A DNA stretch of 64,000 nt from Paraglaciecola sp. T6c. Lineage in GTDB: Bacteria; Pseudomonadota; Gammaproteobacteria; Enterobacterales; Alteromonadaceae. Below the pieces are notes generated by a model. It was not told the DNA's origin. It saw only the letters and a program-made list of their open reading frames with translations, and searched no databases. How positions within the stretch are numbered: the stretch's first letter is position 1; every line of letters begins with the position of its first letter. Both the position numbers and the translations under genes were made by a program. Shown piece by piece: positions 58,150 to 61,513 of this stretch. The stretch is taken from positions 62,001 to 126,000 of the forward strand of contig NC_008228.1 in NCBI RefSeq assembly GCF_000014225.1. Reading direction: 5' to 3'.

Positions 58150-59289
58150 ATGAATTTTAATTTATCTGAAGAACAAAACATGCTCAAAGACAGCGTTGCG
58201 CGCTTTGTGCAAGACGAATACGACTTTGAAGCACGCCGCAGCAATGCCGCCAATGCATTAGGGTTTAATCCTGACAATTGGCAAACTTTCGCAGAGTTGG
58301 GTTGGTTGTCTATTCCATTTGAAGAAGCTTACGGTGGTTTTGGTGGTGGTCCCACTGACGTCATGGCCGTTATGGAAGAAATGGGCAAAGGCCTAGTGGT
58401 TGAACCGTTTGTGGCAACCGTGCTGATGTTCGGTGGTTTATTGAGTAAAAGCGGCAACGCAGCACTGAAAGATGCGAATATTGAAAAGATCATTGATGGC
58501 TCACTGCAAGGCGCATTTGCTTATGTTGAGCGTCAAAGCCGTTTTGAACTAGCGGACGTGAAAACCCAAGCAAAGCGTGACGGTGATGACTTTGTACTTA
58601 GCGGTGAAAAAACCGTTGTGTTCAATGGTGCAGCCGCCAACAAGATGATTGTGTCAGCCAGAACCTCAGGCGATCAGTGCGATGAAGCAGGTATCACTCT
58701 GTTTTTGATTGATGCAGATGCACCGGGTGTACAACGTACGGCTTACCGCTTAATGGACGGTCAGTTAGTCGCTAACATTAAACTCACCGATGTACGCGTA
58801 GCGGCAAACCACGTCGTTGGTGAAGTCGACGATGGTTACCAGCTGATAGATGCTGTGGTTAGCGACGTGACGATTGCCCTGTGTGCAGAAGCTATGGGTA
58901 TTATGCAAAAGCTCAATACCACCACCATTGAATACACTAAAACGCGTCAACAATTCGGTGTGGCGATCAGTAGCTTTCAAGCGTTGCAACATCGCATGGT
59001 GGATATGTTTATGGCGGGCGAACAAGCCAAGTCCATTTTATACCGTGCAGTGTGTGCTGCAGAAAGCGGAGCCGAAGATTTAGCTAAAAATATCGCTGCA
59101 CTGAAAGTGATGATTGGGCGCAACGGTAAATTGATTGGTGATGAAGCCATTCAATTGCATGGCGGTATGGGGTTAACGGATGAGTTAGATGTAGGCCATT
59201 ACGTTAAGCGCCTGATGATGATTAACACCACCTTCGGTGATGCAGATTATCAGCAACAGAAGTTTAACCGTTTAGCTTATACAGACTAA
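58150..59289 (+). CDS. Acyl-CoA dehydrogenase (second of pair)
   Basis: A 379-residue ACAD, more divergent than its neighbour: MNFNLSEEQNMLKDSVARFV opens it, the ERQSRFEL segment replaces the usual TEP loop, and TRQQFGVAISSFQALQHRMVDM and QLHGGMGLTDELDVGHYVKRL remain. Such uneven pairs are frequent in operons for sterol, aromatic or branched acyl-CoA oxidation, where they form heteromers (family knowledge). No other beta-oxidation genes are adjacent. Followed by a terminator. Confidence 0.93.
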   Translation: MNFNLSEEQNMLKDSVARFVQDEYDFEARRSNAANALGFNPDNWQTFAELGWLSIPFEEAYGGFGGGPTDVMAVMEEMGKGLVVEPFVATVLMFGGLLSKSGNAALKDANIEKIIDGSLQGAFAYVERQSRFELADVKTQAKRDGDDFVLSGEKTVVFNGAAANKMIVSARTSGDQCDEAGITLFLIDADAPGVQRTAYRLMDGQLVANIKLTDVRVAANHVVGEVDDGYQLIDAVVSDVTIALCAEAMGIMQKLNTTTIEYTKTRQQFGVAISSFQALQHRMVDMFMAGEQAKSILYRAVCAAESGAEDLAKNIAALKVMIGRNGKLIGDEAIQLHGGMGLTDELDVGHYVKRLMMINTTFGDADYQQQKFNRLAYTD

Positions 59290-59314
59290 TGGTTTATTTT
59301 TAGAGTCGATATTA

Positions 59315-59345
59315 AAGCCAGCTGACATAGCTGGCTTCTTTGTTG
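59315..59345 (+). terminator. Terminator behind the acyl-CoA dehydrogenase pair
   Basis: AAGCCAGCT-GACAT-AGCTGGCTT followed by CTTTGTTGTT. The stem sequence is the same as in the hairpin at 53103-53128. Confidence 0.8.
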
Positions 59346-59367
59346 TTACCGCATGGATTTATAAGCT

Positions 59368-59396
59368 GCGCTTCGCTTATTCATGGCCTACGGCCA
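59368..59396. repeat. Partial copy of the island repeat unit
   Basis: A 29-bp exact match to the beginning of the unit at 59467 (GCGCTTCGCTTATTCATGGC and the following CTACGGCCA), then the sequences diverge. It marks a third, truncated member. Confidence 0.75.
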
Positions 59397-59466
59397 GATA
59401 GCACAGCTTCGCTGCGTTATACACTGCGTTATACACTGCGTGTGCTAAGCATTCACGTTGTTCACT

Positions 59467-59594
59467 ATGCGCTTCGCTTATTCATGGCCTACGGCCACTA
59501 GAGCATACGCTTCGCGTACCAGCATCCATGCTGGGTATGACAGACCATCCATGGTCAGCCAGTCACTTCTTTCCAACAGCCGAAAGAAGTAACC
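59467..59594. repeat. Island repeat unit, copy A
   Basis: About 128 bp from ATGCGCTTCGC to AAGTAACC. Nearly the same sequence recurs 360 bp further on as copy B, with changes mainly in the first 35 bp and in the loop of the last hairpin. It includes AGCATCCATGCT, GACCATCCATGGTC and a GTCACTT..AAGTAAC stem. Confidence 0.82.
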
Positions 59595-59826
59595 AAGACA
59601 AAATGGTCGGGAACCATTTTGAACATCCGAAGGATGGCCCGTAGGGCAAAGTACAGGACGTACTTTGTAAAGGCCGCCCTCCAGTAAGTCACTTATTCCC
59701 TGTGCGTCTCGTCTAACACAGGTCGTGAAAACGCGTTCCCGACGCGGCTTTCACTTGAATTGCATCCATGCAATTAATCCAACGTTAGCCTTCGATGCTC
59801 GGTGTGACTTGAGTCGGAAATAAAAC

Positions 59827-59952
59827 ATGCGCTACGCTTATTTATGGCCTGCGGGCACTAGAGCATACGCTTCGCTTACCAGCATCCATGCTGGGTATGA
59901 CAGACCATCCATGGTCAGCCAGTCACTTTTTCAAAAGACGACAAAGTAACCA
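59827..59952. repeat. Island repeat unit, copy B
   Basis: Matches copy A at a constant 360-bp offset for most of its length, including the central 55 bp with both CATCCATG hairpins. Its final hairpin is GTCACTTTTTCAAAAGACGA then CAAAGTAAC. Confidence 0.82.
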
Positions 59953-60470
59953 AAAAGTCTCTTGCTTCAGCAAACTTCCAAAACCGCTAAAAGCCACGCT
60001 TTTTTGTCATACCGGCGTGAGAAAACATCTCGGCAACTGCTCCTGCGTTGCTCTACCTTTCTGCATCCTTGCAGATCGCCTGTAAAGCACTTCGCTAACT
60101 TAGCTCTTCGAAAAGGTATAATACAAAGCTGAGTTTAAACCCCTCCTTGGTGGCTCTCCCCATAACGGAGTTATAGCTTCGCCATCCATGGCGAATCGTT
60201 CACTCGATAGGAGCGATGCTCCTAAAATCCTCGGCTTCATCCTTGTCTGGCCATCTGACAAGCCACGGCTTTTACACGGAAAGTGTGAGTCGCCTATTGA
60301 TTCGCTACGCTCACTAAAGCATGCGCTTCGTGTACAGAGTAAGATCTTGGAACTACCCTGTATTCCCATAAGTGAAAAGCAAAAAACTGGAAAAATTCAA
60401 CCTGTATCCTAGGTTACCGATTATGCTAAAAAAGACATGCATTGAAAGACGGAAATTTTCTGGATAATAC

Positions 60471-60737
60471 TAGGGCGTGTTGATCTTTTCTGTTCATTTT
60501 TGCAGCGGTCTGTGTACTGTTTAGGCAAGGCGAATGTTTGAAGGTCTAGTGGGCTAAATCAAAAGCATTCAACGCGGTATAAACAGTACACAGGCGCTGC
60601 CCGAAGGGGTCGTCATGGAAGTATTTTACTCTTTGTCACAGTCCTTTGACTTAGCCCACTAGGCCCGCAGGACTGTTTCGCGATTAAAACGCTTCCATTT
60701 AGACCAAAATTCGTTCAGCAAAGATCAACACGCCCTA
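60471..60737. mobile_element. MITE-like element, 267 bp, no transposase
   Basis: Terminal inverted repeats of 18 bp match perfectly: TAGGGCGTGTTGATCTTT at the left and its complement AAAGATCAACACGCCCTA at the right; similarity continues for a few bases. Inside are nested inverted repeats: CTGTGTACTGTTTA (60510-60523) with TAAACAGTACACAG (60580-60593), and CTAGTGGGCTAA (60546-60557) with TTAGCCCACTAG (60651-60662). A TA at each end may be the target duplication, as for IS630/Tc1-type elements. No protein is encoded, so mobility would need a transposase elsewhere. Confidence 0.8.
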
Positions 60738-60778
60738 ATGTTATTTATCTTCAAACCGCAGTTAATAGAGGGAGTCCA

Positions 60779-60954
60779 ATGAATGAGCATTTAGGTTCTT
60801 GTCTTTGTGAAACGGTCAGCTTTGCGATAAAAGGAGAGTTTGACAGTTTTTATTTGTGTCGTTGTCACCGACTGCCCAAATTTTTTCAGCCAGCAAAGCT
60901 TATTGGGATACTGAGTTAGAGGGAATCATAGTGTTTGAGGGGTTACCGGAGTGA
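60779..60954 (+). pseudogene. Broken GFA-family gene (glutathione-dependent formaldehyde-activating-like)
   Basis: A GAGGGAG ribosome-binding site and ATG start a frame reading MNEHLGSCLCETVSFAIKGE then FDSFYLCRCHRLPKF, the metal-binding N-terminus of GFA (DUF636-type) proteins. After CHR the frame slips, and a second frame reads FSASKAYWDTELEGIIVFEG before a stop at 60952. Roughly the last half of the usual protein, including its C-terminal Cys pair, is absent. It lies directly beside the MITE-like element. Confidence 0.75.
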
Positions 60955-61036: not shown

Positions 61037-61513
61037 CTATTTTTTATATTCAATCGAGGTGACGTACCAGTCTTTGTAGCCGGTGGGGGTTTTGACACTG
61101 GCGACATCATCTACTTCTTTCTTGATTAACGCTCTGGCCATGGGGGAGTCGATAGAAATGTAGCCTTTAGCATCGCCGTAGATTTCTTCTGGGCCGACAA
61201 TGCGAAATTGCTTTGTTTCGCCTTCATCGTTTTCAATCTCTACCCAGGCACCAAAGAATACTTTACCCGCTTGCTGAGGGGAGTAATTAACGATTTGTAG
61301 TTCAGGCAGGAGCTTGCGTAGGTAGCGAACGCGTCTGTCGATTTCTCGCAACTTTCGCTTGTTGTATTGGTAATCCGCATTTTCACTTCTGTCACCCAAG
61401 CTGGCTGCCCATGTGACGATTTTAGTGATCTCTGGGCGTTGTTTTAGCCACAGTTCATCATGCTCGTCGTTGAGTTTTTTGTAGCCTTCAGGGGTAATGA
61501 GTTTTGTTTTCAA
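61037..61513 (-). CDS. greB: Transcription elongation factor GreB
   Basis: Rescues backtracked RNA polymerase by stimulating transcript cleavage. The 158-residue protein has the N-terminal coiled coil MKTKLITPEGYKKLNDEHDEL, the acidic tip ASLGDRSENADYQYNKRKLREID with the catalytic Asp/Glu, and a C-terminal FKBP-like domain (ISIDSPMARALIKKEVDD). The RKLREIDRRVRYLRK basic patch separates GreB from GreA. Monocistronic. Confidence 0.96.
   Translation of the reverse strand: MKTKLITPEGYKKLNDEHDELWLKQRPEITKIVTWAASLGDRSENADYQYNKRKLREIDRRVRYLRKLLPELQIVNYSPQQAGKVFFGAWVEIENDEGETKQFRIVGPEEIYGDAKGYISIDSPMARALIKKEVDDVASVKTPTGYKDWYVTSIEYKK

Follow-up and report, generated by a model that had tools for sequence, protein, structure and literature searches.

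The window, i.e. the whole 64-kb stretch of Paraglaciecola sp. T6c DNA that we analyzed, contains an array of short hairpins in a region flanked by an acyl-CoA dehydrogenase gene (plus strand, ending at 59289) and a greB-type gene (minus strand, 61037–61513). A terminator-like hairpin (59315–59337, plus strand) is located 3′ of the acyl-CoA dehydrogenase gene and ahead of the array, which itself extends from 59346 to 60430 and for which the hairpin strand count designates the minus strand as the RNA-like (GGA) strand. Inspection of the open reading frames gave no convincing candidate, and a coding explanation was rejected. The first-pass annotation had described at least six short palindromes with a common core and differing arms at this place. 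All six CATCCATG cores were recovered on the plus strand (59523, 59546, 59763, 59883, 59906 and 60183), with arms that differ and are complementary at each of them (CCAG/CTGG and GAC/GTC, twice each, AATTG/CAATT and TTCGC/GCGAA). Similarly, the reported 360-bp spacing of a duplicated unit was reproduced, but not its reported length of 128 bp: the repeat comprises 105 bp at 94% identity (59467–59571 and 59827–59931, strand not assigned), whereas 128 bp are only 80–84% identical.

A lead on the RNA strand came from the TwoAYGGAY family (RF01731): the AYGGAY of its loops is reverse-complementary to the core given in the first-pass annotation. Read on the minus strand, CATCCATG becomes CAUGGAUG, an AUGGAU hexaloop with a C-G closing pair that matches the CsrA/RsmE site CANGGANG exactly, the published CsrA/RsmE consensus being A/U-CANGGANG-U/A (PMC5864733).

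On this strand, the array can be dissected as follows. A series of C(GNA)G triloop hairpins (59346–59505) lies toward its 3′ end. Unit 1 contains hairpin D, a C(GAA)G triloop (UACGCGAAGCGUA, 59506–59518), the CsrA-type hairpins C (CCAGCAUGGAUGCUGG, 59519–59534) and B (GACCAUGGAUGGUC, 59543–59556), whose cores are exactly 23 nt apart, and the 12-bp hairpin A (59562–59593). Hairpins C and B recur in unit 2 (CCAGCAUGGAUGCUGG, 59879–59894; GACCAUGGAUGGUC, 59903–59916), and between the units lie the hairpin CGCGU-CGGGA-ACGCG, with GGA in its loop (59732–59746), and the CsrA-type hairpin AAUUGCAUGGAUGCAAUU (59758–59775). Two further CsrA-type hairpins are UCUGCAAGGAUGCAGA (60060–60075; N = A), which was absent from the first-pass annotation, and UUCGCCAUGGAUGGCGAA (60178–60195); they are followed by a block (60240–60265, minus strand) with 88–92% identity to RF01731 loci located elsewhere in this genome. 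In total, seven ANGGAY hairpins with at least four of five pairs are present in the array, all seven on the minus strand. In most arrays of the genus, the GGA hairpins come together with runs of C(GNA)G triloops whose arms vary.

Adjoining the array, 60464–60744 is taken up by an element whose 29-nt inverted ends are 90% complementary and which contains nested inverted repeats. The closest relative (G002) lacks this element there, position 60433 almost abutting 60760, and the element has the appearance of a recent MITE-type insertion. No terminal inverted repeats border the array itself, the inverted-repeat search giving long-arm pairs only beyond 60464.

The core is not a peculiarity of this locus. 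CATCCATG occurs nine times in the window (2.3 expected), and a pattern search of the complete 5.19-Mb genome, requiring outer flanking bases that are both S or both W, listed 137 sites. Perfect 4-bp arms are found at 28 of these, using 15 different arm sequences, as compared to a mean of 1.1 (maximum 6) when the 3′ arms were re-dealt among sites as a shuffled control. CATCCATG palindromes are thus well above chance and lie at many loci besides the window, so that the single-locus objection fails.

To define the loop, we used an unbiased hairpin list from ten arrays of this genome and 39 loci of relatives (∼50 array loci). The commonest loops were ATGGAT (41), AGGGAT (15), CATGGACG (10), TCGGGAA (10) and AAGGAT (7), and these top loops were close to zero in Markov sequence. 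In the substitution spectrum of single-base neighbours of ATGGAT (hexaloops with at least five perfect pairs), the second position (T 33, G 10, A 4, C 3) and the last (T 33, C 12, A 2) are free, and the intervening and leading A, G, G and A are constant except for five ATGAAT loops and one other. The loop consensus is ANGGAY, with N free and GGA fixed, which, judged by its sequence, is the CsrA/RsmA binding motif; hairpin loops with ANGGA and an invariant GGA, as found in CsrA-binding RNAs, are what the array displays. Accordingly, the fixed core of the first-pass annotation stood, but the conserved part is the minus-strand ANGGAY loop and not the CATCCATG palindrome as such.

We then considered the stems. 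Distinct ANGGAY hairpins (n = 151) carry 92 different 5-nt arms, and their mismatches, read on the GGA strand, are predominantly G•U (31 versus 4 A•C; p = 3e-6), also when related hairpins are collapsed (23 versus 4; p = 3e-4). As the stem mismatches of the GGA strand are G•U and not A•C, this strand is taken to be the RNA. As a control, the C(GNA)G triloop hairpins from these arrays, most of which share that orientation, gave 23:19 and 13:13, making a mutational strand bias an unlikely cause. A larger set of C(GNA)G hairpins showed no wobble asymmetry either, and we therefore make no RNA claim for these triloops. Support for the asymmetry comes from the genus arrays and from further loci within the order, the counts for Lachnospiraceae (2:1) and for the cross-taxon pair set (22:13) being too few or mixed.

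A four-hairpin unit, A-B-C-D, recurs across the genus. Of the 47 hairpin pairs found, 37 have a distance of exactly 23 nt between their two GGA cores. Alignment of 25 units showed pairing of 99% for helix B and 98% for helix C, with changes on both sides at every one of their eight pairs and far lower values in shuffled and slid controls. As these units were picked by their loops, the constancy of the loops in this alignment cannot serve as independent evidence, unlike the pairing of the outer arms, for which only three pairs (wobble allowed) had been demanded. Taken together, hairpins, covariation and strand asymmetry point to selection for RNA structure in the arrays. The initial proposal of a dispersed family with a constant core, compensatory arms and selection for structure is hence borne out by arm counts and covariation.

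TwoAYGGAY is known from gammaproteobacteria and Clostridiales (PMC2864571) and was proposed from motif matches to bind CsrA, which was left untested there (PMC4333381). In this genome, RF01731 has four matching sites with E below 0.001, of which three exceed the gathering score, and the covariance model finds no match in the window array (59250–60800) at E up to 1. Like TwoAYGGAY (RF01731, clan CL00106), the array has adjacent AYGGAY-loop hairpins with variable, covarying stems, present as two tandem pairs with a 23-nt core spacing on the minus strand. Unlike TwoAYGGAY, it is longer and made of several modules, with at least seven GGA hairpins plus triloop hairpins, and misses the 168-position model. 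It shares blocks of 17–218 bp (70–100% identity) with stretches around RF01731 matches of this genome, some of which score under the gathering score. Because it is homologous in blocks yet fails the model, we regard the array as a variant, not a member, of TwoAYGGAY. The earlier statement that no named element matches must be amended for the sibling loci, which do match TwoAYGGAY, and holds for the window array, which remains below that model. In Lachnospiraceae loci (L280–L302), the number of TwoAYGGAY copies rises to at least 13 in a genome; some copies form divergent pairs ∼300–460 bp apart and some are situated within long imperfect inverted repeats, with arms differing from copy to copy.

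A single, canonical csrA gene was identified in this genome, with a product that over 58 residues is almost identical to a CsrA of solved structure (PDB 1y00). A CsrB-like sRNA lies away from the arrays at 3831387–3831723, and the matches to RF00018 (CsrB) in this genome are confined to 3831387–3831815, the window array not being among them. The CsrB-like match (L310, L311; G000:C1:3831387–3831815) is under the gathering score with an E value of 2.9e-12; it is adjoined by a second partial CsrB match, and 27 GGA occur on the strand of the sRNA. Across taxa, csrA is present in 17 of 18 genomes with the hairpin-pair pattern, a set comprising Gammaproteobacteria, Lachnospiraceae, spirochaete groups and one deltaproteobacterial bin. 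Lachnospiraceae offer the stronger test, because csrA is patchy there (98 of 200 genomes): it was found in 30 of 31 genomes with RF01731 versus 68 of 169 without (Fisher p = 7e-10, kinship ignored), a co-occurrence that concerns RF01731 and not the exact window array. This provides independent genomic support for the CsrA-binding proposal of 2014, which had been left open. In addition, the hairpin block is carried by a replicon of Pseudoalteromonas sp. Bsw20308, taken by its name to be P. fuliginea BSW20308, for which CsrA RIP-seq yielded the motif AuGGA (PMC11882849).

Places resembling the array region number 34 in this genome, and, counting this one, 21 of the genus's 22 genomes gave matches. 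The same sequence is present in the sister species Paraglaciecola mesophila. In G002, an array occupies the corresponding position and is built from identical modules in a different order; the remaining relatives examined lack such an array there and, where this could be seen, have different neighbours. The arrays of this genome have genes for transposases, toxin-antitoxin systems and ATPases in their vicinity and also occur behind 5S rRNA. CsrA-type hairpins directly follow 5S rRNA in at least three of the rRNA operons (464550–465026, 1614945–1615420 and 4832308–4832957; L054, L055 and L072, all on G000:C1), with the GGA strand antisense to the operon and a repeated piece of the 5S end plus terminator between the hairpins. 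Beyond the genus, an exact-pattern scan of GTDB genomes returned at least 119 stretches as compared to an estimated ∼5 by chance; about half of these cross-taxon matches overlap open frames, some being probably coding or due to chance, and the scan is read as a measure of spread, not of counts. In Pseudoalteromonas, a block of AUGGAU hairpins is embedded in a 211-bp MITE with TATACCAATYCGC ends, 98% identical at two different sites (L312, 1421–1631; L313, 1422–1630), and this MITE has 77 matching places in 11 plasmid records. Ends of its TATACCAAT type were not found in the window array. Two other origins were dismissed: phage (no matches in 50,697 phage records, and only two pattern matches in viral contigs) and integron attC sites or gene cassettes, considered since the arrays alternate with small genes and unlike them in spacing and order.

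We favour, with a probability of roughly 0.6, an interpretation in which the array encodes a minus-strand modular hairpin RNA that offers docking sites to CsrA and acts as a CsrA decoy (sponge); minus-strand transcription, CsrA binding and titration are inferred. According to this model, the minus strand of the intergenic region would give rise to an RNA of modular hairpins with ANGGA(Y) loops, each a putative CsrA docking site (at least seven in the window array). One CsrA dimer could be held by each pair of sites 23 nt apart, of which the array has two, and the RNA would thereby lower free CsrA, with many such arrays scattered through the genome alongside an ordinary CsrB-like sRNA. Given this separate sRNA, the arrays need not be the sole CsrA antagonist. 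Neither a minus-strand promoter-like site nor a strong terminator was detected near the array, so independent transcription is without sequence support, and no convincing GacA-type boxes were seen upstream of the arrays. In 8 of 13 arrays of this genome, the GGA strand heads at its 3′ end toward a convergent gene, which would call for efficient termination. When the 1.1-kb strand is folded in isolation, only 6 of its 22 GGA triplets are predicted to be more than 70% unpaired.

The same hairpins might instead bind CsrA in cis, within mRNA untranslated regions that have received copies of arrays (here the greB 3′ region), and alter mRNA stability or translation with no global titration. The position of greB, which is the first gene upstream of the array on the GGA strand, lies 606 nt off in the same orientation and is transcribed toward the array, would suit such a role, as would the classification of TwoAYGGAY as cis-reg in Rfam and the inclusion of 3′ UTRs among Pseudoalteromonas CsrA RIP-seq peaks (PMC11882849). 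However, the 5′ neighbour is divergent, not co-oriented, in most arrays of this genome, and neighbours vary among relatives with no constant gene partner, which leaves the cis explanation rather unlikely. Somewhat less probable still is a selfish, MITE-like repeat whose hairpins serve its own RNA or DNA, any effect on CsrA being a by-product or an exploitation of the host. The setting of the arrays in variable regions that also harbour genes for transposases, toxin-antitoxin systems and ATPases, the shuffled module order between the two closest relatives and the Pseudoalteromonas MITE, found at different sites in two members of that group and matched in the plasmid records described above, all speak for mobility; yet the arrays of this genome lack such MITE ends at their borders, and MITE copying alone would not preserve ANGGAY loops amid freely changing, covarying arms.

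C(GNA)G-type triloops are very stable in single-stranded DNA, and this stability was counted in favour of palindromes acting at the DNA level (REP/BIME-like, cruciform or protein-binding sites) with no role as RNA, as were the mostly intergenic position of the arrays and the absence of strand asymmetry in these triloops. Against this, the excess of G•U over A•C at the ANGGAY hairpins, the non-palindromic loop consensus with its free N and the co-occurrence of RF01731 with csrA in Lachnospiraceae render a purely DNA-based function highly improbable. Dispersed intergenic palindromes in many copies are also typical of REP/BIME elements, but unlike those, the core and loop of the arrays fit the site of an RNA-binding protein, the arms vary freely and the wobble pairs are strand-asymmetric; a REP-type explanation is not needed.

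As a CsrA decoy, the array would resemble CsrB/CsrC, RsmX/Y/Z, Aln1a-c and Pf1-3 in its repeated GGA-loop hairpins, variable arms and expected protein target (PMC11882849, PMC5864184). Those sRNAs are encoded by one to few compact genes, with their own promoters where mapped, whereas here at least a dozen dispersed, rearranging arrays carry mostly AUGGAU loops and no recognised promoter. The CsrA-binding sRNAs RrA/RrB/RrF of E. coli are located behind 5S rRNA (PMC8144298), as are some of the CsrA-type hairpins described above, although the GGA strand of the latter is antisense to the rRNA operon. The loop chemistry is already known from CsrA sponges and TwoAYGGAY; going by the literature searched, it is new that multi-hairpin arrays of this kind are dispersed and rearrange, that they are strand-asymmetric, that there is co-occurrence with csrA and that copies are borne by a MITE.

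Overall, these results suggest that the many clusters of this genome constitute a large, scattered and possibly mobile CsrA-decoy reserve, undescribed in this form. More tentatively, and with odds well below even, they may belong to a cross-phylum family of dispersed, partly MITE-borne CsrA-decoy RNAs, in which modular arrays multiplying and rearranging in genomes and islands would couple the activity of CsrA, the global post-transcriptional regulator of the host, to mobile-DNA copy number. CsrA regulation is usually explained by one to few sponge RNAs; if at least a dozen scattered arrays present CsrA sites, the whole Csr balance would depend on the copy number of a repeat, which differs among sister species.
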